DNA of 52,415 bases, from positions 1 to 52,415 of the IMG/VR virus record IMGVR_UViG_3300024348_000054; one strand, given 5' to 3'. The stretch comes from a virus. The notes under the pieces are model-generated. The model was given only the letters and a program-made list of their open reading frames with translations, was not told the DNA's origin and searched no databases. The translations under genes and the position numbers were made by a program. This document shows positions 18,556 to 37,446 of the stretch, piece by piece (position 1 is the stretch's first letter; each line of letters opens with the position of its first letter).

Positions 18556-21500
18556 ATGGTAAGATGTCCTAATAGAAATACAAAAGAGTACAAAGATTTA
18601 TTAGCTGTACATAAGAACCCAATGAAGGTTGATATTCTTATCAACGATTGGCAGAACATGACAGGTAGTGAAGATATACCAACTGTAAGTTCTATTGAAG
18701 GTATGTTTAGTGATGATCAAATCATGATGTCATTAAGAAGAGATTCTTTAGAAGACTCACTGTTAAGAAATCTTGCAAATAAGAATATAATTAGCAAGTA
18801 TAAAAATAAATGGTATGTCAATGTAACAACACCAGGTCAAGAACAAGCTTCACGAACTACTATTAAAAATAATATAGGTAGATTACAAAACTATGTTAAA
18901 AATCAAAATCTAGGTAATGCTATATCATTAAGAAGAACAGCACAGACATATGAAGTTATAGTAAACAATGACATGTTTACCAAAAAAGATTTAATTACTG
19001 ACAGAACTGATCAGGATTCTACAAAAATAGCACAAGTAGTTAACCATCTAACAAATCTATTTCCACAAGTCAAAGTAAAATACATGACTCCAGGAGAAGC
19101 TAAGGCAGCTTATGCTACTATACCATCTAACGCAAAAAGAAAAGTAAAGTTTCAAGATGTTAAAAGTTTTATGTACCAGGGTAATGCTGTACTAATTAAA
19201 GGTAGAGTTACAAAAGACACAGCAGTAGAAGAAGTATTACACCCGTTTGTTAATGCTCTCTATAAAAGTAATACTACTTTGTTTAACAATTTACTTTCTG
19301 AGTCTAAGAAAACATTTCCTGAATTAGCTCAACAGATAGAAGCTATGTATTCAGGTAAGAAAGAATTTTCTCCAAAAGACAGAGCACAAGAGTTAGTGAC
19401 TCAGGCTTTGTCAAGACATTTCTCAAAAGAATATGAAACTAACCCTACACAACCGTGGTATAAATCAGTAAAGGATTTTTTAAAGTGGTTTAGTGATGTT
19501 ATTAAAGATGTTTATAAGAACCTAATGGGAGGTACGCTAAAATTAAATGTTGGCTTTATTAAATCTGACATGACTATGTCTGACATATCTAAAATGTTAA
19601 ATACATCTGAGTTTGAGTTTAGACTTGACATAAATCCATTGGGAGATAGAATGGTACAGTATTCTTTAAGTGAAGGAATGCAAAAACTTGTAGACACTGC
19701 AAAAGACAGAGCTACAACAACTACACAATCTAAAATAATTAATAGAATACTAAATCAAGTAGAAGATGCTGATGACATTTTTGATAGCTTAGGTGCAAGC
19801 AGGGTTACATTAGATACAAAAAGCAATGAGTTTGTGGATTTAGACAATGCTGATGTATATACAAATTTAGAAAGTATTATACATGAAAATAAAACTGATA
19901 ACTCATACTTAGTAGAGGCAATAATGAATCAAGACAAAACTCTTATTGATCCTAGTACTAACATAACAGCAATTGCAGCTAGAATTGATGGTATGACGGA
20001 AGATGGTAGTACAATATTACCAGGAGTTATAGTAGCAGATCCAGGATCAGGTATAGCAACTAAGATTACAGCTATAAAAATAAGTCCTGATGGAGCAATA
20101 ACTATAATAGATATTAAAAAAGATTCTGATCTTACTAAAGGTAATCAAGATACCTTCATAAACTCACAAAGACAGATATTAGAAAACTTAGGTTATAATG
20201 TAACTGATAAATCATTTACAATCATCACAACTCCAAAAGGAGAATACATAAAAACAATAACTCACCTTGATTCTTATAATAGAGAAGCAGTAGAAAAAAT
20301 AATTCCTGCTGAAATAGATACAGAAAACAAAAGTATCATAGATGAGATAATAGGTAAGGAAAGAAATGTTGAAGGTGAAAATGATAAAGAAGATTTTATT
20401 GAAGGAGAAGCAGAATTTTTAGATTCTCCTACTTATGATGCTGTTATGGGTGTTTTAAAGCCATACAGAAAAGTTTTATTAACTAGAGAAAAAGCTATAA
20501 AAACAGCAAGGAACGTTATAACTATGGACGGTGGTAGAAAAGAAATGATTGACCAAGTCCAGATGACTAGAATGATTGTAGAAGAGGTGTATGAAAATCC
20601 TGGAGAAATAAAAAGGATATACGTTGATGTCATACAAGATGCTTTAAGACAACTAGAAGAAATAAAAGAATATGCTACAGATCCAGATAATTTTGGCAAG
20701 CCTGAATTTATATCTAAGATATTAAATTGGCAAAAGTTTGTTGAAAGCTTTAGAGGTTTAACTAATCTGACTGCAACAGCAGGATTAAATAAAACAGAAT
20801 TAGATTACGTAAACAAGCTACAACAAACTCTAAATGATATTATTGGTATAAGAAAAATGGACAGCTCAGTTGTAGAAAAAGGTATATTTGATATTGCAAT
20901 TAAAGATTATGTTAGAACTTTAATTAAAGAAAAATCAAATAGAAATTTTACTGAAGCTGAACTAGAAGAACTTCTAACTACTGCTAGAGATATTAATGCT
21001 GTTGAATATCAAAGTGGTGACATGGCAACATCAAGAGATGCTATCTTAGCTATTATGGACAAGATGTTTAAAGCTGATAAATTTAAAGTGCATGATAAAA
21101 TTGAAGCAAGAGCACCTAGAATTAGATCTGCAGCATTAAAACTATCTAGACTTACAAACGGTAAAACAATAGATTATAGTTTTATGTTGATGTTTGACGA
21201 AAAGGGAGAGTTTACAGGCAGATATGTAACAAAAATAGGAAAAAATTATACAGCTAAACAAAAAGAAATTAGATCTAAGCTGTATGATGAAAATGGTCCT
21301 AGAAAATATATAACTATAGAGAATAAAGATGATGCAACACCAGAACAATTAGAGCATAACAAACAGCTTGCTAAAGATAAGGCAGCTTATGGAGAATTTA
21401 TGTCAGCTGAAGTTAAAACACAAGAAGGTGTTGAAGATGGTAAGTATCATAAATACACTGATGAATTTAAAGAAGCAAGATCTAAACATGAAGTGTATAT

Positions 21501-23961
21501 ATACAATGCCTTTAGTGAAAGGGGTAGTTGGGTTAAAAGTAATACTGTAGATAAAATAGAGTATAGAAAATATTTACAGAAATACTATGATATATTAGAT
21601 GAGTATGAATCTCCAGTTAGAAATAGAGAAGGTGAACCTACTGGTGAAACACAACTTAGAGAAGGTATACCTGTAATTAAAAAAGAATTTGTAGAAGTAA
21701 GAGAACAAAGTAGTGATGGTTTAGATTTAGTTAGTGAAAAATATAGATCTATAAACAATCCTAAAACTGAACTACAAAAAGCACAGCTTGAATATTATAA
21801 TATGTTTATTGATGTGTATCAAGATGAGCTAATGGAAAAACTTCCTGAAAATGTTAAGATGCAAGGTAAGGTTCCTGTAATATATGCTAATGTAACAAAC
21901 AAACTAAAACATAAAAAAAATCTTGTATCTAGAATGTGGACAGGTATGAAGAAATTTACTTCTGACTTAATACATCCTAGTACTAAAGTAAAAAAAGTAT
22001 TTACAGATAAGCACGGTAATATAATACATAACTCTTTACCTTTATATTTTACAGGGGGCATTGTTAAAGAAGAAGTTTATGAAGAATTACAAAAAGAACT
22101 AGAAGCATTTGAAGAAAAATACAAAAACGCTGAGACACAAGCTATAAAAGACGGCTGGAATAAAAAAATAAAAGCATTACGTGGTAAAATAAAAGCAATA
22201 GAAAGACAACCAACATCAACTACATTGAGTATGGATCTGACAGATTCATTACTTAAGTTTAGTGAAATGGCTGAGAACTATGAGACAATGGCTGCAGCAG
22301 AAGACACACATCTTGCAATGATTAAAGTACTAGAAAAAAGAACGTACACTAATTCTAGAGGAGATATTAAAGTATTTGATGATAAAGGTGAAGCTGTAGA
22401 TGCAGTAGACAATGTTGGTCAAGAAGCTAGGATGGTAGCAAGAGCAAAGAAGTGGATGAAGATGGTTTTCTATAATAACGACAGTGATGTAAAAACATTT
22501 TGGGATAAGCTTACTAAAGGTCTTATTAGTTATACATCTCTTGCTTATGTAGGAACAAACGTTTTTGGTAATATAAATAACTATGCATTTGGTAGAATAT
22601 CTAACACTCTAGAAACTGCAGGTGGAAGATTCTACAGTAGAAAAGGTATGGTTAAAGCTGTAATAGGATTTAACAAAAGAATGGTACCTGACTTAATGCT
22701 ACACTTAGGTAAAGTTGCTCAAGAAAAAGCAAACAAAAATGTACAGTATCAAGAAAAAATACCTTATAGTAAATATGCAGCAATGGTTGCTTTCTTTAGA
22801 ATGATGGATCCTAAAGCAGATCAGCGTGAGTCAGGTGATGTATCTGACATGTGGAATAAATACACAAGTTGGGCATACGCATTACAAGATGCTGGGGAAT
22901 TTAACGTACAAAGTAAGATTGGTATGGCAATACTACATTCTACTACAGCTATAAATCCTACTACTAAAGCAACAATGAGTTTGTATGATGCTATACAATT
23001 TGATAGAACTACAGGTGAAGTATCTTTGAAAAAAGGGTTTACACAAATCCAAATGCATAATAGTGATAAAGTAAGAGAATGGAATGCGGATGCTAAGTAT
23101 GAAGTAAGGAATTATATAAGAGAGACAAATAAGATCATACATGGTAACTACGCTTATGAAGACAGAATGGTAATGCAATCACATTCTCTTGGTCAATTAG
23201 CAGCACAGTTCCACAAGTGGGTAGCACCGTCTATCAAAGCAAGATTTAGATCTGAGTATTACGATGAAAACTTAGGGTGGATGGAAGGAAGATACTTGAC
23301 GTTTTGGAATTTTTTAGGTTATGCTTATAAAAATATAGGGCAGATACAACTAGATGGGAGTGACTATAAAGAGTTTCACGGAGAGAAAGGAGCTGTAAAA
23401 CTACAGAATGTATACAGGGTGTTAGGTGAGATAGGAATTATACTAGGCACCTATGCAGCAAAACAAATACTGATGTCTATGTGGGGCATGAACCCGGATG
23501 ATGATAGTGATGAAGCTAAGAGGATGAAAAGAATGAAACAAAGAAAAGAAGCTTTAAGAAAAAGACAAGGTTTAGAACCTGAAGTTTCTGACATGACAAA
23601 AAGATTAAGAAACATATTAGTGTACCAAATGGACAGACTACATGATGAAACAGTTATGTGGGTTCCTATTCCAGGAGCTGGTGGTCTACAACAAATGGGA
23701 CACTTTATTCAAAACCCTATTGCAGCATCAAGGACTCTTGGTGAAATGGGTGAAGCTATAGAGATGACTGCACGTACAGGAATAACCTGGAGCCTTAGTA
23801 GTGAGGAAGATTTTTATGCAAACAAAAATGTTGTATATCAAAGAGGTATCAATGCTGGTAATATAAAGTTAGGTAAAGAGTGGGGTGATGCTGCTCCCTT
23901 CCTATACACTGCTAACAAGTGGAGAAACTTTATTCAGATGAATGATTTCTATATAAAATAA
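18556..23961 (+). CDS. 1801-aa giant virion cargo protein with degenerate peptidase-like and nuclease-like segments
   Basis: The N-terminus MVRCPNRNTKEYKDL is typical of the large protein encoded beside the polymerase in crAss-like phages. Residues 225-229 read EEVLH followed by P: this resembles an HExxH helix whose first His is Glu, so a canonical zinc site is unlikely. At about 515-521 the strand TIIDIKK follows a Gly-turn strand (ISPDGA), the arrangement of the D-x-K strand in PD-(D/E)xK nucleases. The central part is charged and helical. The C-terminal 400 residues contain Trp/Tyr-rich helices, a segment of the type GNYAYEDRMVMQ-x-LGQLAAQFHKW (about 1532-1556) that recurs in this family, and a hydrophobic helix (about 1622-1645). 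The start is 12 bp after the 4898-aa gene, so one operon is likely. Probable role: co-packaged subunit or ejection protein working with the polymerase. Nuclease function is inference only. Confidence 0.72.
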   Translation: MVRCPNRNTKEYKDLLAVHKNPMKVDILINDWQNMTGSEDIPTVSSIEGMFSDDQIMMSLRRDSLEDSLLRNLANKNIISKYKNKWYVNVTTPGQEQASRTTIKNNIGRLQNYVKNQNLGNAISLRRTAQTYEVIVNNDMFTKKDLITDRTDQDSTKIAQVVNHLTNLFPQVKVKYMTPGEAKAAYATIPSNAKRKVKFQDVKSFMYQGNAVLIKGRVTKDTAVEEVLHPFVNALYKSNTTLFNNLLSESKKTFPELAQQIEAMYSGKKEFSPKDRAQELVTQALSRHFSKEYETNPTQPWYKSVKDFLKWFSDVIKDVYKNLMGGTLKLNVGFIKSDMTMSDISKMLNTSEFEFRLDINPLGDRMVQYSLSEGMQKLVDTAKDRATTTTQSKIINRILNQVEDADDIFDSLGASRVTLDTKSNEFVDLDNADVYTNLESIIHENKTDNSYLVEAIMNQDKTLIDPSTNITAIAARIDGMTEDGSTILPGVIVADPGSGIATKITAIKISPDGAITIIDIKKDSDLTKGNQDTFINSQRQILENLGYNVTDKSFTIITTPKGEYIKTITHLDSYNREAVEKIIPAEIDTENKSIIDEIIGKERNVEGENDKEDFIEGEAEFLDSPTYDAVMGVLKPYRKVLLTREKAIKTARNVITMDGGRKEMIDQVQMTRMIVEEVYENPGEIKRIYVDVIQDALRQLEEIKEYATDPDNFGKPEFISKILNWQKFVESFRGLTNLTATAGLNKTELDYVNKLQQTLNDIIGIRKMDSSVVEKGIFDIAIKDYVRTLIKEKSNRNFTEAELEELLTTARDINAVEYQSGDMATSRDAILAIMDKMFKADKFKVHDKIEARAPRIRSAALKLSRLTNGKTIDYSFMLMFDEKGEFTGRYVTKIGKNYTAKQKEIRSKLYDENGPRKYITIENKDDATPEQLEHNKQLAKDKAAYGEFMSAEVKTQEGVEDGKYHKYTDEFKEARSKHEVYIYNAFSERGSWVKSNTVDKIEYRKYLQKYYDILDEYESPVRNREGEPTGETQLREGIPVIKKEFVEVREQSSDGLDLVSEKYRSINNPKTELQKAQLEYYNMFIDVYQDELMEKLPENVKMQGKVPVIYANVTNKLKHKKNLVSRMWTGMKKFTSDLIHPSTKVKKVFTDKHGNIIHNSLPLYFTGGIVKEEVYEELQKELEAFEEKYKNAETQAIKDGWNKKIKALRGKIKAIERQPTSTTLSMDLTDSLLKFSEMAENYETMAAAEDTHLAMIKVLEKRTYTNSRGDIKVFDDKGEAVDAVDNVGQEARMVARAKKWMKMVFYNNDSDVKTFWDKLTKGLISYTSLAYVGTNVFGNINNYAFGRISNTLETAGGRFYSRKGMVKAVIGFNKRMVPDLMLHLGKVAQEKANKNVQYQEKIPYSKYAAMVAFFRMMDPKADQRESGDVSDMWNKYTSWAYALQDAGEFNVQSKIGMAILHSTTAINPTTKATMSLYDAIQFDRTTGEVSLKKGFTQIQMHNSDKVREWNADAKYEVRNYIRETNKIIHGNYAYEDRMVMQSHSLGQLAAQFHKWVAPSIKARFRSEYYDENLGWMEGRYLTFWNFLGYAYKNIGQIQLDGSDYKEFHGEKGAVKLQNVYRVLGEIGIILGTYAAKQILMSMWGMNPDDDSDEAKRMKRMKQRKEALRKRQGLEPEVSDMTKRLRNILVYQMDRLHDETVMWVPIPGAGGLQQMGHFIQNPIAASRTLGEMGEAIEMTARTGITWSLSSEEDFYANKNVVYQRGINAGNIKLGKEWGDAAPFLYTANKWRNFIQMNDFYIK

Positions 23962-23965
23962 TAAT

Positions 23966-24286
23966 ATGTCAACCAAAAATAAAAGTGCTTACAAACCGTT
24001 ACCAGATTATTTAGCCATAGGATCCTCAGATATACACGGGGCTGGTATTATGGCAAAAGATGATATTCCTGCTGATATTGAAATAGGAATAAGCCATGTA
24101 TATGATCCTAACTTTCAACACGAATATATAAGAACACCTTTAGGAGGTTTCATAAATCATTCAGATGAACCTAATTGTGAGCTTATAGATGATGATGACA
24201 ATGTAGATTATAAAAAGATCAAGACAATAAAGAAAATAGAGATGGGTAGAGAACTTACCCTTAAGTATTCTATGTATGATCTATAG
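23966..24286 (+). CDS. Small SET-domain protein (putative protein-lysine methyltransferase)
   Basis: This 106-aa protein carries the core SET motifs: an N-terminal S-x-I-H-G-A-G-I-M-A strand pair (about 20-30), FINHSDEPNCEL (62-73) containing the NHSxxPNC AdoMet and pseudoknot signature, and ELTLKYSMY (96-104) for the catalytic-Tyr end. SET enzymes transfer methyl from AdoMet to lysine side chains; viral stand-alone SET proteins of about this size are known. It starts 4 bp after the 1801-aa gene and so extends the giant-gene transcript. Its last 17 bases overlap the 3' end of a second SET gene on the other strand. The target protein (phage virion, host ribosome, polymerase or other) cannot be told from sequence. 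It stops at TAG. Confidence 0.8.
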   Translation: MSTKNKSAYKPLPDYLAIGSSDIHGAGIMAKDDIPADIEIGISHVYDPNFQHEYIRTPLGGFINHSDEPNCELIDDDDNVDYKKIKTIKKIEMGRELTLKYSMYDL

Positions 24287-24638
24287 GCACCATGTAATAT
24301 AAAAGTAGTTCTTCTCCTTTTTTAATATCTTTTATTGCTATAAAACTTACCACACGATCTTTATATGGCCACACTCTTGCCAAGTTTTTATCTTCTCTTC
24401 TTTCTGCAGAGTTATACATCATTGCATTTCCTGATAATATAATCCAAGATTTAATTTCTTTTTTATCTATATTTACTTCTCCTACAAATCTATAATCAGA
24501 TAAAATTTCAGAATCTGGTTTAATACTATCTTTAATTACCACACATTCTTCTACAATTGTGTTTTTCTTTATATCCTCTATAGCAAATACACCATAACCG
24601 TGCACACTACTCTTTTTTATTTCTGTTAAATTTATCAT
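24270..24638 (-). CDS. Second SET-domain protein, divergent active site
   Basis: The 122-aa product has the N-terminal SET signature SSVHGYGVFAIEDI (10-23) and the C-terminal GEELLLYYM (108-116). The usual NHSxxPN block is replaced by GNAMMYNSAERRED (70-83): Asn and Ser are kept (76-77) but the His and Pro-Asn are lost, so AdoMet binding or substrate handling may differ. Its ATG overlaps the TGA of the ribonucleotide reductase gene by 4 bases (ATGA), so it is translationally coupled to that gene and expressed from the same minus-strand message. Its tail overlaps the + strand SET gene by 17 bp. The two are too different to be a recent duplication. It may be an enzyme with altered specificity or a binding-only SET fold. 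Confidence 0.72.
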   Translation of the reverse strand: MINLTEIKKSSVHGYGVFAIEDIKKNTIVEECVVIKDSIKPDSEILSDYRFVGEVNIDKKEIKSWIILSGNAMMYNSAERREDKNLARVWPYKDRVVSFIAIKDIKKGEELLLYYMVPIDHT

Positions 24639-26494
24639 GTAATCTCACAGCTACCTCCAGCACAAGCTAACTCACCTTTAAGATCAGTATTATCATCTAG
24701 TTCTACAACTTTCAACAAGTCAACAGATGTTAAGGCTTTTAATAATTGTTCATATTTATCTTTTGTAATATCTTCAAAAGGAGCTTGAGTATATGTACCA
24801 CCATTGTATGGTAATACAGCTAAACCATTATAACAATCTCTATTTTTCCACATCCATTCACCAGCTTTATCCCATTCATCTTCTTTTAAGCTAATAGTTG
24901 CAGATACGTTATGGGTATTAGAACCTGTTCTATGCCCATTTTTTACCCAACCGTCTGAAATTAACTTGATACGTTTTAATAAATCAAATGCAGATTCAGT
25001 TCTCATTATGGAACCTTTAGGTGCTGATTGTGGTATTGAAATAACAGCAGTATCATGTGGTCTAAAGTATTCATCCTCAACTAACTCCGGGTGGTGAGCC
25101 AATAAGTACATATAAATCGGCTCATTCTTACCTACACGTAATCTTCTAATATAGAATTCATTATGCCAAGCATGAATACCAGAAGAAGTACCAAGAGTTA
25201 AGGAAGTTGTACCAGCAGGTTTAACACATGTAGTTCTAGCTGCTTTATTTACACCAATCTTTTTTGCCACTCTAGCATTTTCTCTTTTAACCAGATATGC
25301 TGCTGCACTCATGTCTAATTTTAAAACTTTACCACTAGCTATACCTGTCATAGATACACCAATAAGAGAATCTTTCTCAGTTGTCTCTTGCCATACTTGT
25401 CTTAAGTAATGAAAGTTAGTATAACCTGCTTGTAGAGTTCCAATAAATGCAGCACCTTTAACTCTCTTATCTAACTCTTCTTGAGCATCAACGTCTGATA
25501 CATTAACTTCACACAGATTACAAAACTGATAAGGTCTTAAAGCAATCTCACAACAAGGGTTAGTTCCCCAGTCTTTGTCGTTGTTAAAGTATATACCAGG
25601 CTCACCAGAACCAGATAACTCAATACGTTTCCAAACATCCATAAAAAACTCTTTAGTTATCTTATGCCTCATTAAAACAGCTGAATTATTAGCTCTACCT
25701 CTTTGTGGATTTTTCTCCCACCAATCACCTGATTTGCAAGAAATCATTTCATCATCATGAGCAGTAAAAAGACTAATTAAAGCAGCACGTCTGATACCTC
25801 CTGCTAATACAGCATCAGCAATATAACATACTATATCATGCACTTCTAAAGTACTTAATTGATCTCCATCTTCTTTACTACTTAGTATACCTTCCACTTT
25901 TAATAAACATTCTTTAAGTGGTTGAGGACCAGGAGCTTTCCCTCCAGACGTTACAAGTCTTGCCCCTTTAGGTCTAATATCTGAAAAGTCAAATATAATC
26001 TTAGAGGATCTACCATTTAAGTATGATTTCATTAACAATTTAACTGCATCTGACCAACCCTCAATAGAATCACCAATTAAATATCTTTTAGTTCTTTTTG
26101 TATAAGGTTTGTTTATAGGAGGAAGCTGAGCTACATGATGTTTTTGTACAGAGTAACCTACACCGGTTCCTCCCAATAATAAAAACATACACTCACTAAA
26201 TGAATCAACATGATCTATAGGCATATAAGCACAATTGTATATTCTATTAGGAGCAATCTCAATTGGTTTACCACCAAACTGCATTGATCTCATTGATGGT
26301 AATATCTGTTTATCATAAACCATCTGATATACTTCTTCTATTTCTTCTTTAATATGCGGGTATGACTTTACGTGCATGTCCTTGTTTCTTGTAACTAATT
26401 CTTCCCATGTTTCTCTTCTGTTTAATTCTGGAAGATATTTAGCATACTTCATATGTACAGTAATATCACTTAGAATTTTGTTGTTTAATTCCAT
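24635..26494 (-). CDS. nrdJ: Class II (adenosylcobalamin-dependent) ribonucleoside-triphosphate reductase, monomeric type
   Basis: It reduces ribonucleotides to deoxyribonucleotides using adenosylcobalamin and needs no oxygen-dependent small subunit. Key residues are visible. C88 in YNCAYM and C325 in QFCNL form the redox pair. C314 and E316 in NPCCEIAL give the thiyl-radical Cys and catalytic Glu. A C-terminal CAGGSC (C611, C616) is the C-x4-C swivelling dithiol. The 11-residue spacing from thiyl Cys to second redox Cys equals that of the Lactobacillus leichmannii enzyme (C408, C419), supporting the single-chain RTPR subtype. The motif LLLGGTGVGYSV (105-116) and the loop CVKPAGTTSLTLG are also typical. 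At 619 aa it is shorter than the roughly 740-aa reference. It is on the strand opposite to the structural genes and is followed by a coupled SET gene. It would supply dNTPs for phage replication, with B12 obtained by the host. Confidence 0.93.
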   Translation of the reverse strand: MELNNKILSDITVHMKYAKYLPELNRRETWEELVTRNKDMHVKSYPHIKEEIEEVYQMVYDKQILPSMRSMQFGGKPIEIAPNRIYNCAYMPIDHVDSFSECMFLLLGGTGVGYSVQKHHVAQLPPINKPYTKRTKRYLIGDSIEGWSDAVKLLMKSYLNGRSSKIIFDFSDIRPKGARLVTSGGKAPGPQPLKECLLKVEGILSSKEDGDQLSTLEVHDIVCYIADAVLAGGIRRAALISLFTAHDDEMISCKSGDWWEKNPQRGRANNSAVLMRHKITKEFFMDVWKRIELSGSGEPGIYFNNDKDWGTNPCCEIALRPYQFCNLCEVNVSDVDAQEELDKRVKGAAFIGTLQAGYTNFHYLRQVWQETTEKDSLIGVSMTGIASGKVLKLDMSAAAYLVKRENARVAKKIGVNKAARTTCVKPAGTTSLTLGTSSGIHAWHNEFYIRRLRVGKNEPIYMYLLAHHPELVEDEYFRPHDTAVISIPQSAPKGSIMRTESAFDLLKRIKLISDGWVKNGHRTGSNTHNVSATISLKEDEWDKAGEWMWKNRDCYNGLAVLPYNGGTYTQAPFEDITKDKYEQLLKALTSVDLLKVVELDDNTDLKGELACAGGSCEIT

Positions 26495-27113: not shown

Positions 27114-30100
27114 ATGGCTAGAAATTCAACCCACATAAATTGTAATCAAGTAGCAGGAACAGTAAACCAGGGAATCTGGTTAAACGACTGTGATCCTTGT
27201 GCAACATCACCTTATAATATTAATAACATTACAGTTTGGCACAGATTTAACTATGGAGTAAATAACCACGCTACTGCTGCTGACATTTTAGCAAACGTTG
27301 CTAACGGAGCTAATGTTACAAAGTGGGAAGATCAGATAGGAACTAATCATGGTGTTCAAACAACAGTAGCTGATCAACCAACATGGTATGCAACAGATAC
27401 ATCACATGCTGTACAAGGAGGTAATCACTTTGATCTTACATCAGGAATAACTTATGCAGCAGCAGAAGATTTTACAATTTTAGTTTCTTACGTACCTGTA
27501 GTGTCAAGTACACCAGGAGGAGAAATTATATGGGACGGAGGTAGTGGAGCACACCATGTAAAATGGTTAAGCACAACTACAATAGAAGTTAAATTAAACA
27601 ATGTTGCAACTACAGTTACTGGACCAGCTATACAATTAGCTAACTACACTAACTTTGTTGTTAGAAGATGTGCAGGTACTGTTCAAGTATTTATAGCTGG
27701 TATACCTTGGGGAGCAACACATGTAAATAATGGTTTAACTGAAATAGATAGATTAGCACCAACGGGTAATGGTTACATTGCTGCACACATGCAGTTTGAC
27801 AGATGTTTAACTGATAAAGAAATATGGTGTCTTGATTGTTACAACAGTAATCAAGATGACGAAGAAAAGCCTATATCATGTAATATTAGTGATGACAAAA
27901 TAGAATGTTTTGGTGACACTGACGGATCATTAACAGCAAACGGATTTAACATGACAGGTGCCATAACTTATTTATGGACTCCTGGTGGGCAAACAACACA
28001 AACAATAACTGGTCAAGGTGCAGGTACTTATAGTTGTACTCTTACTGACTCAGCATCTCCAGCAAATATTTGTACTGCAACAGGAGCTGTTACAGGACCA
28101 AATACAGCACTAGCTTGCACAGTAACTGGAGTAGATCCAGAATATATACTAGACTCTGCAAATCAACAAATTTTAACAACAGGTAGTGTATCAGTAAATG
28201 TAACAGGAGGATGGGGCGCAGGATGCGCACTAAGTTATGTATGGACTAGAAATGGTTCAGCAATATCAGCTGGAAACGGCGGAATGGCTAATCCAGGAAA
28301 CGTTGCTACATTTAATGTAACGATGAATGGTGTATATGCAGTAACAGTTACAGATTGTGAAGGATGTACTACAACATGTAATGTAACAATAACAATACCA
28401 AATCCACCATCTACTTTAGATATTGAGTGCTGTTATGAAGCATTAGGATGTAATGGAGGCGATTCTCTATGGGCAATCATGATAGACTCTACAGCAACTT
28501 TCCCTGTTACTATAACAGCTGTTGGTTCTGTATCAGGAACAGCATCTTGGGCACCTATTACAGTTTCTTCATTGCCATCATCAACTTCTATAGACGGTTC
28601 TATTTATGACCTGTTTCCTTGTGAATCATCAGGCCCTTGGTATTACGGTGCAGCAGGTACTGAACTAGATGCAGGAGAAACTTGGACGTTTACTGTAACA
28701 GACAGTTCATCAACACCAAGATCACAACAATGTGCTGTAACTTTACCAAATCCAACAGCAATTACATTAAACTCTAGTGTAGTCCAACCAACAACTTGTG
28801 AAAATGCAGGAGCAATTACAAATGGTAGTATTTCATTTCAAGGTTCAGGAGGCAGCAGTGGATGTAATCCATATACTTATTCAATAACTGGACCAAACAG
28901 TTTTTCAACTACTAACAACTATGTAACGAATGCACCGGCTGGTACATATACATTAACAGTAACAAATGCATGTGGATGTACAGCTACAGAAGATGTAACA
29001 ATAACATGTCCAGTAGGGAATGCTAATATGACTGTAACTACTACAGTTATAAGCTGTAATCCAATTCCAAGTGAAAGTAATCCTAATCCAACAGCACCGT
29101 GTGATGCAACAGCAACGTTTACTGCTAGTCCAACATCAGTGGCAGGATTTACTTTTACATTAAATCTATACATTAATGGTACTACTCTAGTTCAATCATA
29201 CGGACCATCTGCAACATTTAATGCACAAACATTATCTACACTATGTTTAGGTAATTATGATTGGGAATATATTTCCACAAACACTACAAGTAATGTAACG
29301 AATATAGAAGACAGTGGAAGTTTTACAATAACTGCACCACCCGTTCTTAATGCAACAGTAACTTCTACAACTAGTATAAATTGTGCCGGTGGAGCAACAG
29401 GTGCAATTGATATAACACCAAGTGGAGGTACTCCAGCTTATACTTACTTATGGACAGCAAGTAATGGAGGTGTAATTCCATCAGGACAATCTACCAACCA
29501 AGATTTAACAGCTTTAGTTGCTGGTATTTATACCTGTGTTATAACTGATTCAAATAGTTGTACGTTTACATTAGTGCAAGCTCTTGGAGAATTAACATGT
29601 CCAATAACTATTCAAGCTTATCCTAATCCTATAAATTGTACTGGTCAAACTACAAACATTGATAACCTATATATAAGTTGTGCTACAGCACCACTCACTT
29701 ACGCATGGGTTGCAAGTAATGGCGGATCTCTTGGAGGAAACGCATCTACCGTAGCAGCATTATATAATATTGGAGCAGGGACTTACACAGTTACTGTAAC
29801 AGATACTAATGGATGTACAGGAACTCAAGCATGGACAATAGCAGCAGCTAGTTCTATTACAGGTTCTATTACAGGAACAAATGTTGATTGTAAAGGAGAA
29901 AGAACAGGAGCAGCACAATTTGATCAATGGGCAGATGCTCAATTTTCTGGAGCTGCATACCAATGGTATACTGATTCAGGATACTCTACTGTTTATCCAT
30001 ACGGAACATCTACTAATGCGTATATTAGTTCTGCACCAGCAGGAACATACTATTTACAAGTAACATTAGGAAATGGATGTATTTGGCAAGGTAGTATTGT

Positions 30101-31058
30101 TATTACTGAGCCTGGAACAGGAATGACATTAGCAGCAGTTATAACAGATGAAAATGAATGTACAGAATGTTGTGGAGCTATTGACTTAACAGTAACTGGA
30201 GGAGCAGCGCCATATACTTATCAATGGAATGATCCTACAGCATCAACTACTCAAGATTTAACTTGTGTTGATGCAGGAACTTATAATGTAATAGTAACAG
30301 ATGACAACGGATGTACTGCAACTGCAAATTACACTGTTGGTTATCTTAATTATTCATTAAATATATATCTTTCAGTAGACGTAGCAAATGGACAACTACT
30401 TTCTTCAATAACAGGAGGAACTCCAGGATATTATTATCAATGGACTCTAAACGGTAATCCTTTCTCTTATGCAGCTAATCCTTTTACTGCAGGAAACGGA
30501 ATCTATTGTTTAACTGTAACTGATGATTTTGGTTGTACAGGAACTAGATGCATTGACTTTAACCAAGAAATAAGAACAGGAAGTTTTAACTGTCAAACCT
30601 ATACACCAACTGTTGGAATTACATCATACGGATGTGTATCTGTATCAGGAACAGGAGGTACTTACAGCACGCTTGCAGCTTGTCAAGCAGCATGTGGAGT
30701 TGATAGACCTACTAGATACAGATGTAAAGAAGGAAGTGGTTGTTTTCCTCATCCTGGCGGAACGTTTGCTACTTTAGCTGCTTGTAATGCAGTATGTGGA
30801 GAAACGGGGGGAGACGATATTAATTACGTTTGTGAGATTTTATGTAATGATAGCACCTCAGGAGAACACTACAAAAGAACTGATGGAACAATTGATACTG
30901 ATTCAGATGGTAAACCAATCAGACAAGCTTCTGAGACAGCCGGTGGTAGATGTAGAGAAGAAAATTCAGAGACAGATAGTTCTTTAACTAAATATACAAC
31001 AGTAGAATTATGTAGAAAATCATGTCCTTGGTGTAAAGAAGGAACATACAGATACTAA
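27114..31058 (+). CDS. 1314-aa adhesin-like protein: LamG domain, SprB/PKD-like repeats, Cys-rich tail
   Basis: Residues about 35-245 form a LamG/concanavalin-like sandwich ending in the typical FDRCLTDKEI helix. From about 250 to 1150 come repeated domains of 65-80 residues. Each begins near a Cys, has GG-T/A-PAYTYLW-like strands and ends G-T/I-Y-x-C/V-x-V-T-D-x-x-G-C-T. This is the SprB/PKD-like repeat pattern of Bacteroidota surface adhesins; good copies lie at about 250-325, 745-820, 840-905 and 1010-1075. Residues 1157-1235 hold two Cys-rich units containing TLAAC-x-A-x-CG, also common in Bacteroidota surface proteins. There is no signal peptide and no T9SS sorting domain, so it is more likely a virion surface protein (head fibre or tail adhesin) than a secreted one. 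Many disulfide-capable Cys suggest stability outside the cell. Confidence 0.8.
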   Translation: MARNSTHINCNQVAGTVNQGIWLNDCDPCATSPYNINNITVWHRFNYGVNNHATAADILANVANGANVTKWEDQIGTNHGVQTTVADQPTWYATDTSHAVQGGNHFDLTSGITYAAAEDFTILVSYVPVVSSTPGGEIIWDGGSGAHHVKWLSTTTIEVKLNNVATTVTGPAIQLANYTNFVVRRCAGTVQVFIAGIPWGATHVNNGLTEIDRLAPTGNGYIAAHMQFDRCLTDKEIWCLDCYNSNQDDEEKPISCNISDDKIECFGDTDGSLTANGFNMTGAITYLWTPGGQTTQTITGQGAGTYSCTLTDSASPANICTATGAVTGPNTALACTVTGVDPEYILDSANQQILTTGSVSVNVTGGWGAGCALSYVWTRNGSAISAGNGGMANPGNVATFNVTMNGVYAVTVTDCEGCTTTCNVTITIPNPPSTLDIECCYEALGCNGGDSLWAIMIDSTATFPVTITAVGSVSGTASWAPITVSSLPSSTSIDGSIYDLFPCESSGPWYYGAAGTELDAGETWTFTVTDSSSTPRSQQCAVTLPNPTAITLNSSVVQPTTCENAGAITNGSISFQGSGGSSGCNPYTYSITGPNSFSTTNNYVTNAPAGTYTLTVTNACGCTATEDVTITCPVGNANMTVTTTVISCNPIPSESNPNPTAPCDATATFTASPTSVAGFTFTLNLYINGTTLVQSYGPSATFNAQTLSTLCLGNYDWEYISTNTTSNVTNIEDSGSFTITAPPVLNATVTSTTSINCAGGATGAIDITPSGGTPAYTYLWTASNGGVIPSGQSTNQDLTALVAGIYTCVITDSNSCTFTLVQALGELTCPITIQAYPNPINCTGQTTNIDNLYISCATAPLTYAWVASNGGSLGGNASTVAALYNIGAGTYTVTVTDTNGCTGTQAWTIAAASSITGSITGTNVDCKGERTGAAQFDQWADAQFSGAAYQWYTDSGYSTVYPYGTSTNAYISSAPAGTYYLQVTLGNGCIWQGSIVITEPGTGMTLAAVITDENECTECCGAIDLTVTGGAAPYTYQWNDPTASTTQDLTCVDAGTYNVIVTDDNGCTATANYTVGYLNYSLNIYLSVDVANGQLLSSITGGTPGYYYQWTLNGNPFSYAANPFTAGNGIYCLTVTDDFGCTGTRCIDFNQEIRTGSFNCQTYTPTVGITSYGCVSVSGTGGTYSTLAACQAACGVDRPTRYRCKEGSGCFPHPGGTFATLAACNAVCGETGGDDINYVCEILCNDSTSGEHYKRTDGTIDTDSDGKPIRQASETAGGRCREENSETDSSLTKYTTVELCRKSCPWCKEGTYRY

Positions 31059-31921: not shown

Positions 31922-32395
31922 ATGAAAAAAATTAGTCAACACATTAGCTACAAAGAAGCAGTAACAAGTGCTACAGGATTAAGATTAGGTTTAGACAACA
32001 CTCCTGGTCCTGAGCAATTATCATGTATGCAAGATATTGCAAAATTACTCTTTGAACCATTACGAGAATGGGTTGGAGGTCCTATAAAAATAACCAGCAT
32101 GTTTAGAGGAAAGCCTGTTAATACAGCTATAGGAGGAGCTAAACATTCTCAACATATGAAAGGTCAAGCTTTAGATCTAGATGATACTTTTGGACATAAA
32201 ACAAATGCTGAAATGTATCATTACATAAAAGATAATTTAACGTTTGATCAATTAATATGGGAATTTGGGGATGATGAAAATCCTAATTGGATACATGTAA
32301 GTTTTGTAACTCATAGACCTAATAGAAAGAAGTGTACAGTTGCATTAACAAAAAACGGAAAGACAGTATATGAACATAGACCTATAGAGAAATAA
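31922..32395 (+). CDS. M15-family peptidase, probable endolysin
   Basis: The 157-aa product has the M15A signature: ITSMFRGKPVN (57-67) before SQHMKGQALDLD (76-87), which supplies zinc ligands H78 and D85, and WIHVSF (123-128), which supplies H125. The family cleaves peptide cross-links in peptidoglycan (D-Ala-D-Ala or L-Ala-D-Glu bonds). No signal peptide is present, so release would need a holin, or the enzyme could be virion-borne. It is followed, with a TAATG overlap at 32393-32397, by a small membrane protein, consistent with a lysis cassette. Its length matches single-domain phage M15 endolysins. Confidence 0.88.
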   Translation: MKKISQHISYKEAVTSATGLRLGLDNTPGPEQLSCMQDIAKLLFEPLREWVGGPIKITSMFRGKPVNTAIGGAKHSQHMKGQALDLDDTFGHKTNAEMYHYIKDNLTFDQLIWEFGDDENPNWIHVSFVTHRPNRKKCTVALTKNGKTVYEHRPIEK

Positions 32396-32679
32396 TGGCA
32401 AAAGAACTAAATGAAGATACAGGTTTTCAGATAAGTATAAAAACTTTAATAGGAATAGGAGCTGCAATGGCAACAATTATCAGTATGTGGTTTATGCTAC
32501 AAGCAGATATAGCTGACGCAAAAGAATTACCTATACCTCCACCTCAAGATGTAACAAGAATGGAATTTGATATGAAAGATAAAAATATTAGATTGTCTAT
32601 AGAAAATACAGAAAAAGCTGTTGATGAAATGAAAGTAGACTTAAGAAGAATGGAAGATAAGATAGATAAATTAAGATAA
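32395..32679 (+). CDS. 94-aa membrane-anchored coiled-coil protein (holin/spanin-like candidate)
   Basis: One transmembrane helix (about 15-37) is followed by a Pro-rich linker (PIPPPQ, 46-51) and a charged coiled coil (about 55-94). Its start codon overlaps the stop of the M15 peptidase (TAATG), so the two are translationally coupled. An N-terminal helix with a periplasm-spanning coiled tail is the layout of inner-membrane spanin subunits, and also of some single-helix holins. No lipoprotein partner is obvious next to it. The functional call rests on topology and neighbourhood only. Confidence 0.65.
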   Translation: MAKELNEDTGFQISIKTLIGIGAAMATIISMWFMLQADIADAKELPIPPPQDVTRMEFDMKDKNIRLSIENTEKAVDEMKVDLRRMEDKIDKLR

Positions 32680-32781: not shown

Positions 32782-32919
32782 ATGGCAAAGAAGAGAAAAC
32801 TTAACAGTAAGAATCCTAAGTATCACACTAAGGATAAGAATGAACAAGTGGAAAAAAAAAGAATATTAATGTGTACTGCACCTCACAATGTTAAAGTATA
32901 TGGAGTTTGGTATGAGTAA
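32782..32919 (+). CDS. 45-aa basic small protein
   Basis: The product starts MAKKRKLNSKNPKYHTKDKN, is strongly basic in its first 27 residues, and ends VKVYGVWYE. A single Cys occurs at 31. It starts 2 bases after the CDGSH mini-gene and overlaps the start of the thioredoxin-like gene by 8 bases (ATGAGTAA), so the three form a tight translational chain. I recognise no family. A basic N-terminus may bind nucleic acid or membrane phosphate. Confidence 0.55.
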   Translation: MAKKRKLNSKNPKYHTKDKNEQVEKKRILMCTAPHNVKVYGVWYE

Positions 32920-33271
32920 GATAGAACCCATTTGGAAAATATTTGTTGGATACATTCTAATATTAATATTTATGATTGTTAGCTCAGAAGCTACAGGTCA
33001 AATTGTAGTTACACATTTTAATGCTGAATGGAATGATCCAAACAAAGTTTCTTACATAGGTAAGCTAACAGATTGTGACATAGTGTATGTTGATATAGCT
33101 AAATCACCTAAGCTTCAGACTAAACATGAAATAGTAGTTGTACCCACAGTTGTGATATTTAAAGACGGAGAAGAGATGAAAAGATTTCAAGCTGATATAT
33201 CATTTAGTATGAAAGCTACAAGAAAAGAGATGCAATCAGTAATTGATGAATTAATAATGTCAGACTTTTAA
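32912..33271 (+). CDS. Exported thioredoxin-like protein lacking both catalytic cysteines
   Basis: A hydrophobic N-terminal segment (about 7-27) looks like an uncleaved anchor or a signal peptide ending near SSEATGQ. The mature part follows the thioredoxin fold: a beta strand VVTHFNAEW, the active-site position reading WNDPN where active enzymes have WCxPC, a second strand DIVYVDIAKSP, and the cis-Pro loop VVPTVVIFKDGEE. Both Cys are replaced by Asn while the Trp and Pro are kept, so disulfide exchange is not expected and a binding or chaperone role is more likely. The start at 32912 is preferred over the in-frame ATG at 32888: it overlaps the previous stop (ATGAGTAA), and the upstream codons are used by the 45-aa gene. 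It is followed by a secreted repeat protein. Confidence 0.7.
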   Translation: MSKIEPIWKIFVGYILILIFMIVSSEATGQIVVTHFNAEWNDPNKVSYIGKLTDCDIVYVDIAKSPKLQTKHEIVVVPTVVIFKDGEEMKRFQADISFSMKATRKEMQSVIDELIMSDF

Positions 33272-33288
33272 ATGTATACATATATAAA

Positions 33289-35661
33289 ATGAAAAAAATA
33301 TTAACATTCATATTAGCATTTGTAATAAGCTTTGGAATAACAGCCCAAAACTCTTGGGTTAGATTTGAAGTACAATTTGATTTCTATGCACCACAAGAGT
33401 CTAATTTCTTCATGGTTTCTGATGGAAATGGTGATACTTCTATATTTTTTCAACCAACTAATCAGTATGAATACTTAGATACTGTCTTAGCTGTTAATAG
33501 TGGAAACTATACTATAAGTTTAAGAGATAGTTTTGGTGATGGTTGGGTATCAAATCAACCAGCTTCATTCAGAATGGGTAATACATGTCAAGGAGCCATA
33601 ATAAATTGGAATCCGGTATTAGGTTCTTTTTTTCAAAGAGATACTACTGTAACAATATATCCTTGTCCACCACCCACACCACCACAATTAGTATCTGCTA
33701 AAGTTATAATTAACTTAGATCAATATCCTTCAGAAACTTCTTGGGATATATCAGACTCAAATGGTGTTATACATGCATCAGGATCAGGATACGGATCTCA
33801 ACCTATCTATTCTACTATAGAAGAAGAAGTGTGGATCCCTAAAGGTTCATTATTTTTTCAAATAAATGATGCTTATGGAGACGGATTAGAAGGATCTTTA
33901 TGGCAAGGACAAGATGGATCTTACTTTGTAAAGCAATGTAATGACACGCTAGTGTATGGTACAGATCCTGCTTTTGGTTCTGATACTATACATTCTTTTG
34001 CTTCAGATTCCTGCCCACCTATATTTGGTTGTACTGATAATGATTATATAGAATTTAATTACTGGGCCACTGTTGATGACAGCAGTTGTTCTGTTTTGAA
34101 AGTATTTGGTTGTACAGACACTTCAATGTATAATTATGATCCACTAGCTAATACAATGGACATGGTAGATACTTGTGAGTTTACTCTTATATTACATGAT
34201 CTTATGGGTAACGGTTGGGTAGGATCTAATTTAAGATTATTACTACCTGATACTTTCTATGATTTTACACATGCCGGTGGGTTCAATGACGTATACCAGG
34301 TAGGTATAAATGCACCTGAGCCAGCTTCATTTGTATTTAATATAGATCCTTTAGCACAATTTACAACAATAGAATGTGGGTTTACTTTGATTAATTCAGA
34401 TGAAGATACTCTAATCAGTATTATGCCCCCTTTTATTACACCAAATCTTATATACTCTCTAATAACAGATTGTGGTAATGAGTGTATAGAAAAAGTATAT
34501 GGATGTCCGGACACATTAGCATGTAACTATACTGAAGATGTTAATACACCAACTGCATGTCTTTATCCAGTACAGTATTATGATTGTAATAATCAATGTA
34601 TACTTGATGCAGATGGTGACGGTGTTTGTGATCAAAATGAAATTATAGGATGTCAAGATCCTTTATACTATAATTATAATCCTCTTGCAACAGACTCAGG
34701 GTTATGTACACCATTTATCTATGGCTGTACTGATCCTACAATGTATAACTATGATTCTGCAGCAAACTCTGATAACGGTTCTTGTATCCCATTTGTTTAT
34801 GGATGCACAGACTCAACTCAATTTAATTATAATCTAGCAGCCAATACAGAATATACTCCTAGTAATTGTGTTGCTTTCATCTATGGCTGTACTGATCCAA
34901 GCGCATTAAATTATGACCCCCTTGCTAATACAGATGACTTTAGCTGTATTTTACCTATCTATGGGTGTATGGACAGTACAGCCTATAACTTTAATCCTTT
35001 AGCTAATGTTGACAATAATACTTGTGTTCCTTTTATTTATGGTTGCACTGATCCTTCCGCTCTTAATTTCAATGCCGCTGCCAATACAGAAGATTTTTCT
35101 TGCATTGATTATATTTATGGCTGCACTGATAGTAGTGCTATTAATTATGATTCATTGGCTAATACTGATAATGGTTCGTGCATACCTATGGTTGTTGGAT
35201 GTACGGATGAAAGTGCGTGGAATTATAATCCTTTAGCAAACGTCCCTCTTGGACATGATTCTTTAGGTTGTTTATATGCTGCAGATTGTAGTGCAACAGA
35301 ACCAGGAGAACCTTTCTTTTTAAATGATCAATGCTATGCTTGGGTTATCTCAGTAGATGATTACTGTTGTGAGAACGAATGGGATGAGATATGTGAAGCT
35401 ACATATGAGTATTGCTGGGAAGGCTGGACAGGAGCACAACCTCCTTCTAGAATTTCTAGAGAAAAGATATTTTTATATCCAAATCCAACTAAAGGTCTGC
35501 TAAACATTAGTAAAGAAGCAAACATAGAAGTTTACAACATGGTGGGTCAAATGGTAATAAACAAAGAAAATATCACTATATTAGATATGAGCACCTTAAC
35601 TAAAGGTATTTATACTATTAAAATAAATAAATTAACAACAAAACAAATAATTAAAAATTAG
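33289..35661 (+). CDS. Secreted Cys-rich repeat protein with type IX secretion (T9SS) sorting domain
   Basis: A classic signal peptide (MKKILTFILAFVISFGITAQ) leads to two beta-rich domains (about 20-240). Eleven repeats of about 23-26 residues follow, of the form YGCTD-x-x-A-x-NY-x-P-x-AN-x-D-x-x-SC (about 246-665). A Cys-rich unit comes next (CSATEPGEPF...DDYCCENEWDEIC, to about 705). The C-terminus (about 724-790) has the T9SS type A sorting features: FLYPNPTKG, a central VYNMVGQ strand, and the final KGIYTIKIN...KQIIKN. T9SS carries such proteins across the outer membrane of Bacteroidota and anchors or releases them. All parts are typical of marine Bacteroidota surface proteins, so the gene was probably acquired from a host. 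It lies between an exported thioredoxin-like gene and phage-like genes, so its product should decorate the infected cell rather than the virion. Confidence 0.85.
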   Translation: MKKILTFILAFVISFGITAQNSWVRFEVQFDFYAPQESNFFMVSDGNGDTSIFFQPTNQYEYLDTVLAVNSGNYTISLRDSFGDGWVSNQPASFRMGNTCQGAIINWNPVLGSFFQRDTTVTIYPCPPPTPPQLVSAKVIINLDQYPSETSWDISDSNGVIHASGSGYGSQPIYSTIEEEVWIPKGSLFFQINDAYGDGLEGSLWQGQDGSYFVKQCNDTLVYGTDPAFGSDTIHSFASDSCPPIFGCTDNDYIEFNYWATVDDSSCSVLKVFGCTDTSMYNYDPLANTMDMVDTCEFTLILHDLMGNGWVGSNLRLLLPDTFYDFTHAGGFNDVYQVGINAPEPASFVFNIDPLAQFTTIECGFTLINSDEDTLISIMPPFITPNLIYSLITDCGNECIEKVYGCPDTLACNYTEDVNTPTACLYPVQYYDCNNQCILDADGDGVCDQNEIIGCQDPLYYNYNPLATDSGLCTPFIYGCTDPTMYNYDSAANSDNGSCIPFVYGCTDSTQFNYNLAANTEYTPSNCVAFIYGCTDPSALNYDPLANTDDFSCILPIYGCMDSTAYNFNPLANVDNNTCVPFIYGCTDPSALNFNAAANTEDFSCIDYIYGCTDSSAINYDSLANTDNGSCIPMVVGCTDESAWNYNPLANVPLGHDSLGCLYAADCSATEPGEPFFLNDQCYAWVISVDDYCCENEWDEICEATYEYCWEGWTGAQPPSRISREKIFLYPNPTKGLLNISKEANIEVYNMVGQMVINKENITILDMSTLTKGIYTIKINKLTTKQIIKN
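34027..35280 (+). repeat. Eleven tandem GCTD-type coding repeats
   Basis: Units of about 70-80 bp each encode a Gly-Cys-Thr-Asp start and a second Cys near the end, so each may close its own disulfide loop. The best copies (34720-35210) begin YGCTD and differ mainly at the third codon position, which indicates selection on the protein. Copies near 34497 and 34650 are diverged (GCPD, GCQD). Confidence 0.85.
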
Positions 35662-35666
35662 AAACT

Positions 35667-36374
35667 ATGGCAACCTTAAACGCAACGCTTACACTGGCTA
35701 GTTCAGATGTAACTACAGATCCATTAAGCTTTACATTAACAAAAGCTTTATCTGTAAAACCACCAAACATTGGTGTATCTAGAGCAGTAGCTCCAATCAA
35801 CACACCTACAACACTTGTACCAGCTAGTGTTGATAATAAATATGCATATGTAAAACACATGTCACTAAAGACGGATGGTACAACGGCTTCTACAAATACA
35901 ATTAACATTGCAACTATAGGAGACGGCGCACCTGTTAGAGAAGTTAGTACAATCACTTTAGATGCTGATTTAGTAGCAAGTAATACTATAACTATAACAG
36001 TAAACGGTACAGCTTTATCTGCAATTAATTATGCAACTTCACATGCAGCTACATTAACTGCAATTGCAACAGCTATTCAAGCAACAGCAGGTGTGTTAAC
36101 AGCATCAGCAAGTGGTAGAGTGATAACTGTAACAGGAGCTAATCCTGGAGATCCATTTACATTAACTTCATCAGCAATTACTGGAGGATCAAGTCAAGCT
36201 ACTGTAACTGTAGCAGAAACTACAGCAGCAAGCGGAGCAGCATTTGCTCAACTAGCACCAGGTGAATTTGTATTTGTACCAGTAAAAGCAGGAGAAGGTT
36301 TATCTGCATTAGCTTCAGGTACAGTATCAGCTGACGGTGTACTATTAGAATACGCTTACTTTACTAAAGGGTAA
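35667..36374 (+). CDS. 235-aa beta-rich phage structural protein
   Basis: The protein is Thr/Ala/Val-rich with no signal peptide. Residues 1-85 form one beta domain. An apparent inserted module (about 89-190: TITLDADLVASNTITITVNG..., helix ATLTAIATAIQATAGV, then SASGRVITVTGANPG) resembles a repeat domain found in many phage tail and sheath-associated proteins. The C-terminal strand set ends LEYAYFTKG. It probably assembles on the virion surface. It starts 5 bp after the T9SS gene and ends 4 bp before the outer-membrane-like gene, so phage-structural and envelope-directed genes alternate here. Confidence 0.65.
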   Translation: MATLNATLTLASSDVTTDPLSFTLTKALSVKPPNIGVSRAVAPINTPTTLVPASVDNKYAYVKHMSLKTDGTTASTNTINIATIGDGAPVREVSTITLDADLVASNTITITVNGTALSAINYATSHAATLTAIATAIQATAGVLTASASGRVITVTGANPGDPFTLTSSAITGGSSQATVTVAETTAASGAAFAQLAPGEFVFVPVKAGEGLSALASGTVSADGVLLEYAYFTKG

Positions 36375-36378
36375 TAAA

Positions 36379-37446
36379 ATGATTAGAAAGCTTATATTAA
36401 TATTAATTTGTTTACCGCTATTTAGTTTTGCTCAAACAGATTTTCAAAAGTTAATCAAGTTCTCTACATTTTATGGAGCTATTAACGGGGGTACCTCTAT
36501 ATCAGATGTAGAGATATATTCTGTTAATGACGGTTTACAAACTCAAGTTATCAAAACTCCTTATGATTATTCTATAACATTTGGTGTAAGGAAGATAGCT
36601 AGGTTTGGATACGAGAATAAAGCTAACACTTTTTACGATGGAACAGAATCTAATTACAGTGATGCAGCTACAGTAGGTAAGATCAGAGGTCTAGAATACA
36701 AGTTCCAATTTGATATAAAACGTCAAGAGGGGGATAAGTATTTAGATCAACACCACTTTATAAGATACGCTGCTCATGACAATTGTGGTAAGATTTTCTG
36801 TATGAAACATTTCTCTTTCAAAGGAGAATACTTAGAAGATGGATTTGCTGATATTAAATATTTTGAATTATCACAGAGATATAGGCACGAAATAACTAGA
36901 AAGCTATCAGTTAATATAGGAGCAGTACAAAGGATTGCAGAGCCGTATGGATATGATCCTTTAGATGAATGGAGATTGAGCAATGGGAACTTGCATTATA
37001 CTTACCTGGCCATACAGGAAGGATATAATGTAGATGTATATGAAGGAGAGTACTATGACCCGTCAGGTGCTGTTGTTGCGACAAGCACTGAAGTATGGGA
37101 AGCAGTAGTAATACCAGAGGTCTTAGCAAACTATACAGAAAAGAAAAGAGATGAGTTACCCGCACAATGGAATCATTCATTAGTTTTAGGTTTTGACTAT
37201 TATCATTATACTAAGAACCTATGGCTTCATAGTTGGGGAAACATTATGCCATATCATTATGACGGGGGTAGCAATTACTCCTATCATAGATACGAAGGTA
37301 GCCAGTGGATAGATTATTCTGGTGGTTTAGTATTTGGAACTAAAATAAATAAGAACCTGGGTACATTTGTAGAAGCAGTATATAACAAATATTGGAATAG
37401 AAAGTGGTATGACTTTAAATTAGGAATTAATTATATAATATTTTAA
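36379..37446 (+). CDS. Probable outer-membrane beta-barrel protein
   Basis: A signal peptide (MIRKLILILICLPLFSFAQ) is followed by a 336-residue mature protein with alternating aromatic/polar strands and no hydrophobic helix. Examples are FSTFYGAINGG, YSITFGVRKIARFGYENKAN, SLVLGFDYYHYTKNLWLH and, at the end, FVEAVYNKYWNRKWYDFKLGINYIIF. A terminal Phe after an alternating strand is the signal recognised by the BAM outer-membrane assembly machinery. I do not recognise a specific family. In a phage genome it could alter the receptor landscape, block superinfection or act as a pore. It could instead be a virion protein with a chance hydrophobic start, but both ends fit an exported barrel well. Confidence 0.68.
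   Translation: MIRKLILILICLPLFSFAQTDFQKLIKFSTFYGAINGGTSISDVEIYSVNDGLQTQVIKTPYDYSITFGVRKIARFGYENKANTFYDGTESNYSDAATVGKIRGLEYKFQFDIKRQEGDKYLDQHHFIRYAAHDNCGKIFCMKHFSFKGEYLEDGFADIKYFELSQRYRHEITRKLSVNIGAVQRIAEPYGYDPLDEWRLSNGNLHYTYLAIQEGYNVDVYEGEYYDPSGAVVATSTEVWEAVVIPEVLANYTEKKRDELPAQWNHSLVLGFDYYHYTKNLWLHSWGNIMPYHYDGGSNYSYHRYEGSQWIDYSGGLVFGTKINKNLGTFVEAVYNKYWNRKWYDFKLGINYIIF

Follow-up and report, generated by a model that had tools for sequence, protein, structure and literature searches.

A phage-encoded candidate cargo of the type IX secretion system with exchangeable C-terminal tags

Why would a phage carry a gene whose product appears addressed to the surface of a Bacteroidota cell? The question is posed by the gene at 33289–35661 (plus strand) of the window, the 52,415-nucleotide stretch analysed here, an IMG/VR virus record that represents a partial genome (IMGVR_UViG_3300024348_000054). 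Its sequence makes it quite probable that the product is a phage-encoded cargo of the type IX secretion system (T9SS), exported by the Sec pathway and the T9SS of the host to the surface of the infected cell or beyond. Most relatives of this cargo carry a different, unannotated C-terminal tag, which is invisible from the window sequence alone.

The gene is an intact open reading frame with an ATG start and encodes 790 residues. Inspection and a heuristic place a Sec signal peptide at residues 1–19 (33289–33345, plus strand; MKKILTFILAFVISFGITA). The predicted cleavage is followed by Gln20, in agreement with the Bacteroidota rule, described in PMC5837995, that signal peptidase exposes a glutamine. 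Three β-rich modules follow (33346–34488, plus strand), with DxxG[DN]G[WL] motifs (GDGW-like) at residues 80, 194, and 304, while the main array of cysteine-rich GC-D...NY.PLAN..D..SC repeats occupies residues 454–661 (34648–35271, plus strand). In total, the protein contains 39 cysteines and 11 GC-D repeats, compared to 3–14 repeats in relatives. The structure model reaches a pLDDT of about 80–90 across most of residues 21–200 and 296–390 and is poor outside the N-terminal modules. Given the overall pTM of 0.27 and only weak, scattered matches in a PDB fold search, none of them confident, a fold assignment for the cargo body was dropped.

The C-terminus is formed by a T9SS type A sorting domain at residues 729–790 (35473–35658, plus strand), recognized above cut-off by PF18962 (residues 729–787, E 2.9e-11, 43.9 bits, cut-off 27) as well as TIGR04183 (residues 729–790, profile positions 1–72 of 72, 35.9 bits, cut-off 23). 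The motif FLYPNPTKG comprises residues 728–736 (35470–35496). Signal peptide and domain together confirm the original prediction, which had described this product as combining a signal peptide with a sorting domain entered through FLYPNPTKG. A DNA-level search located the domain at 35473–35658 as a single copy in the whole record. With a sorting domain at the extreme C-terminus and, by inspection and heuristic, an N-terminal Sec signal peptide, the protein has the composition of a type A cargo; Pfam and NCBIfam searches of the window protein found no enzyme domain and no T9SS type B C-terminal domain (TIGR04131/PF13585).

The window phage is, by sequence, related to crAss-like phages, without family placement. 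The product of 18556–23961 and the C-terminal part of that of 3848–18544 match crAss-like phage RNA-polymerase proteins at 22–30% identity (best E 3e-19 and 2e-11), and the latter reading frame contains the motif GADFDIDKLY; the window thus encodes the crAss-type RNA-polymerase proteins by which Crassvirales are recognized. Two short SET-domain genes at 23966–24286 and 24270–24638 lie on opposite strands with overlapping ends. Adjacent to them, a B12-dependent ribonucleotide reductase is encoded on the minus strand (24635–26494) among plus-strand genes and is kept in 21 related loci. The 1314-residue product of 27114–31058 combines SprB repeats, known as gliding-adhesin repeats, with Hoc-like head decoration matches and has neither a signal peptide nor a sorting domain; it is probably a virion adhesin made from a host-type repeat.

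Gaps of only 17 and 5 bases lie between the cargo gene and its same-strand neighbours. Nearby genes encode tail-fibre-like proteins, a phage-type ribonucleotide reductase, and an M15 endolysin. Upstream on the plus strand lie the M15 peptidase/endolysin gene (31922–32395; PF08291, E 3.6e-14; phrog_894 endolysin, E 3.3e-23), a gene for a small protein with one transmembrane helix and a coiled coil by inspection (32395–32679), and a gene for a thioredoxin-fold-like protein that starts with a signal or anchor (32888–33271; weak thioredoxin matches). In this last protein WNDPN replaces CxxC, which is present in 0 of the 25 relatives listed. Downstream, also on the plus strand, a Thr/Ala-rich and possibly structural protein of no assigned family (35667–36374; relatives in 10 loci) precedes a predicted outer-membrane β-barrel with a signal peptide and a C-terminal Phe (36379–37446). 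The barrel model consists mostly of long strands (pLDDT 74). The PDB structures most similar to it, at low TM, are porins and autotransporter barrels; no Pfam or NCBIfam family and no specific fold matched. As there is no family match and only a generic barrel fold, identification as a PorV or PorP/SprF shuttle was rejected.

A scan of the viral collection identified relatives of the cargo in 59 other contigs, with best segments 41–88% identical; among annotated phage records, no full cargo relative was found. Each of its three partners, the predicted barrel, the small membrane protein, and the thioredoxin-like protein, is encoded next to the cargo in 46 of the 59 contigs. The locus is thus a conserved cassette and no assembly accident, and the original prediction, which had looked to related phages for a comparable gene, is answered by dozens of phage contigs. 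A heuristic signal-peptide pattern is present in 85 of the 86 family members that possess an N-terminus. The N-terminal part varies among relatives and includes a MAM domain in some; no enzyme domain was found among the relatives scanned. The same cassette occurs on a 43,296-base contig (C32 of G070, loci L263–L264) binned with the Flavobacteriales genome NAT55, where phage-type DNA polymerase, helicase, and exonuclease genes lie beside it. The NAT55 bin, a MAG, has genes for SprA and for numerous type A proteins. Binning is weak host evidence for a phage, and this contig suggests either a host lead or binning contamination.

Do the relatives share the sorting domain of the window cargo? Among the 57 members with a complete C-terminus that were found in the first relative scan, window included, 12 have the type A domain at their end, whereas the other 45 have a short tag of about 38 residues. 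A later scan keyed on the short tag added further loci, which, being short-tag-enriched, are excluded from the 12:45 ratio. Every intact family member carries a tag; in locus L195, the gene is split by an apparent frameshift and the tag lies just downstream. A mixed alignment of phage and host copies gives a short-tag consensus of about KxLLKITDLLGRETKxxKNxLLFYIYDDGTVEKKIIIE. The 38-residue tag matched no NCBIfam or Pfam model even at E 10, including the type B models TIGR04131/PF13585; six full short-tag proteins matched no sorting-domain family, and the short tag was not found in annotated phage records. One other intact short-tag protein, outside the cargo family, was present in the fetched viral contigs (L199, 1907–2992). 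Since it resembles a bacterial secreted protein, its contig may be host DNA.

The two tags have changed places repeatedly. In a tree built from the tag-trimmed cargo bodies (89 rows, 650 columns; quick search with SH-aLRT support only), at least 10 tag changes are required, 8 of which are forced by well-supported branches, and the tag labels cluster no more than shuffled labels. The tree of the barrel gene, likewise from a quick search with SH-aLRT support only, requires at least 10 changes, 6 of them on well-supported branches. These counts are minima on the trees at hand, and recombination within the body may have raised them; recombination that exchanges tags is itself the point of the count. 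The window cargo is the clearest example. Its closest bodies (L007, L002, and L003) are all short-tagged, whereas the window cargo itself ends in a type A domain; the barrel gene nearest to its own belongs to L036, another type A locus. This combination has the look of a natural mosaic in which the exchange took place close to the tag.

What, then, is the short tag? Matching no model and lacking YPNP, it falls outside the type A family. We compared widened and trimmed profiles of the two tags and used 60 column-shuffled controls. The short-tag profile aligns to positions 25–77 of the 78 type A positions (probability 70, P 4e-5), compared to a probability of at most 10 for the shuffled controls (n = 60). 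The short tag is thus similar to the second half of the type A domain, where motifs D and E lie, as these are named in a review (PMC10202324), and lacks motif B (YPNP) and the full domain of about 70–80 residues. According to the same review, the last 22 residues of HBP35, comprising motifs D and E, are enough to secrete GFP, and these two motifs regulate the contacts to PorM and PorV. Collinearity with motifs D and E together with the minimal signal of HBP35 makes the short tag, in function, most likely a reduced T9SS sorting signal.

The short tag is also found in bacteria, among them the probable hosts of these phages. Searching GTDB genomes with a profile built from four sequences gave 78 loci, many of them from seawater; their labels are nearly all Flavobacteriales, Cryomorphaceae, or relatives. 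The strong matches stop 0–3 residues before the protein end and mostly belong to signal-peptide proteins. The 23 bacterial genomes concerned hold 1 to 51 short-tag copies each; type A proteins are encoded in all 23 and SprA, the T9SS translocon, in 19, while the four genomes without SprA may be incomplete. Within 1.2 Mb from two genomes, there are 43 proteins with the short tag and 42 with the type A domain, without overlap. A signal-peptide-like N-terminus, assigned heuristically, is present in 40 of the 43 short-tag proteins, 35 of the 42 type A proteins, and 247 of 793 background proteins (short-tag versus other proteins, p 1.7e-16). Moreover, in each of two orthologue pairs, 96% identical over 288 residues and 83% identical over 430 residues, one genome's copy has the short tag and the other's the type A domain. 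Of 198 evenly sampled Bacteroidota genomes, only 2 contain the short tag, one of them being the centre genome itself, which marks the tag as lineage-restricted. Two records depart from this distribution by their labels: CAMBDW01 (L078 and others; about 1.5 Mb, labelled Chryseobacterium gleum) with 22 short-tag matches and JAACCT01 (L102; labelled Dehalococcoidales) with a short-tag protein. Both are probably mislabelled or contaminated.

Taken together, it is likely that the short tag is an unrecognised, natural T9SS signal of some marine Flavobacteriales, a form of the type A domain consisting of motifs D and E only, and that one lineage of crAss-like phages uses the two tags interchangeably to bring a conserved adhesin out of infected cells. 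A literature search on motif strings of the short tag found nothing, which is weak evidence for the tag being undescribed.

For the phage, we infer the following course of events. In an infected marine Bacteroidota cell, the cargo would be made alongside the products of structural-type and lysis genes, late expression being suggested by its position beside them. The Sec signal peptide would direct it to the periplasm, where the host T9SS would read the C-terminal tag and move the protein across the outer membrane, to be anchored or released. There, the modular, cysteine-rich, adhesin-like body would probably coat or link the surface of the infected cell. Candidate uses are a block against competing, superinfecting phages, the hiding of receptors, altered adhesion, aggregation, and cell–cell or particle attachment. 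In the relatives, the same body with either a type A domain or the 38-residue tag would do the same job, and the conserved predicted outer-membrane barrel with its signal peptide may take part.

Export by Sec and T9SS is favoured by tags that persist in all intact members despite at least eight swaps and by signal-peptide patterns in 85 of 86. The same observations bear on the improbable alternative of a virion adhesin, a fibre or decoration protein in which signal peptide and tag would be vestigial or needed only to reach an assembly step in the periplasm or at the surface. While the cargo gene does lie among structural and tail-fibre genes, and GC-D repeats like those of the cargo are present in a cyanophage S-CAM3 protein annotated as virion structural, remnants would be expected to decay rather than stay near-universal through repeated swaps, and the S-CAM3 protein has neither a signal-peptide-like N-terminus nor a sorting domain. 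Somewhat less doubtful, though still unlikely, is a borrowed host auxiliary gene that helps the infected cell in nutrition or attachment instead of acting in phage competition. Glycoside hydrolases among the cargo of other phages (PMC7468147) and the MAM-type adhesion domains of some relatives would fit such a gene; against it stand the lack of any enzyme domain in the window protein or the relatives scanned and the conserved position beside barrel and lysis-type genes instead of metabolic ones. Most T9SS sorting domains being bacterial, an assembly chimera or host contamination of the viral contig also has to be considered. However, tight spacing on both sides and phage-gene synteny in 46 of 59 contigs make a chimera at the cargo gene very unlikely, and the cassette recurs on the separately assembled contig of the bacterial bin. 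The assignment of the cargo gene to the phage in the original prediction therefore holds, with no sign of a chimera.

Even with the cargo assigned to the phage and its export taken as the preferred reading, the short tag could serve another outer-membrane export or anchoring route in the same proteins rather than the T9SS. We give this a small share of the probability. It would account for the absence of YPNP and of any T9SS model match at E 10, and for the missing SprA match in 4 of the 23 short-tag genomes, although incomplete genomes could explain the latter. Conversely, the short tag replaces the type A domain in 96%-identical orthologues, and does so repeatedly in phages as well; the tag runs collinear with D and E, the very motifs that, in the reviewed HBP35 experiment (PMC10202324), secrete GFP within the last 22 residues.

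If a reduced T9SS signal is the correct reading of the short tag, the number of T9SS substrates that can be recognised in some marine Flavobacteriales would about double (43 short-tag next to 42 type A proteins in 1.2 Mb), and short-tag proteins, dozens per genome, would be invisible to current annotation. The two tags would further provide a natural test of which motifs of the C-terminal domain the T9SS needs, an open question in the field. For the phages, use of host surface secretion would be a regular part of the genome in a widespread marine group and not an occasional acquisition.

Among known systems, the type A domain (TIGR04183/PF18962) is the closest reference for the window tag, which is a full member covering 72 of 72 TIGR04183 positions and differs in being phage-borne; the 38-residue tag of most relatives, in contrast, lacks the N-terminal half, YPNP included. 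The short tag itself resembles the minimal signal of HBP35, which, in the account of PMC10202324, is likewise a short C-terminal piece without motifs A–C and supports secretion in the laboratory. Unlike that piece, the short tag occurs naturally, as a family of many copies with a consensus of its own. The product of 36379–37446 parallels the PorV and PorP-SprF shuttles (PMC12618676) as an outer-membrane barrel, here a predicted one, that adjoins T9SS cargo; having no family or specific fold match, it differs from them, and a shuttle role is speculation.

Type A domains also occur in other phage records. A 634-kb huge phage record (LR745206.1, L265) encodes a 199-residue signal-peptide protein with a type A domain (5605–6204) and has a second T9SS domain above cut-off elsewhere. 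A tblastn search of the phage collection with a single T9SS domain gave three matches, which, with one insensitive query and a collection that lacks the Cryophage record, are no census. The idea of phage-encoded T9SS cargo is not new, as it was preceded by a crAss-BACON reading frame with a T9SS sorting domain in 2019 (PMC6949934) and, in 2020, by three T9SS-tagged cargo genes of Cryophage, for which superinfection exclusion was suggested (PMC7468147). Of the original prediction, the phage gene built for Sec and T9SS export is consequently upheld by its architecture and cassette, while the novelty it had seen in the strategy belongs to these earlier reports. Like the window, Cryophage and crAss-BACON have T9SS sorting domains on proteins of Bacteroidota phages. 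Their cargo comprises endoglucanase, GH39, PA14, or BACON, in contrast to a family without a recognised enzyme domain here. New in the present case are the conserved cassette, built around one cargo family in 46 of 59 contigs, the swapping of its tags, and the unannotated tag itself.
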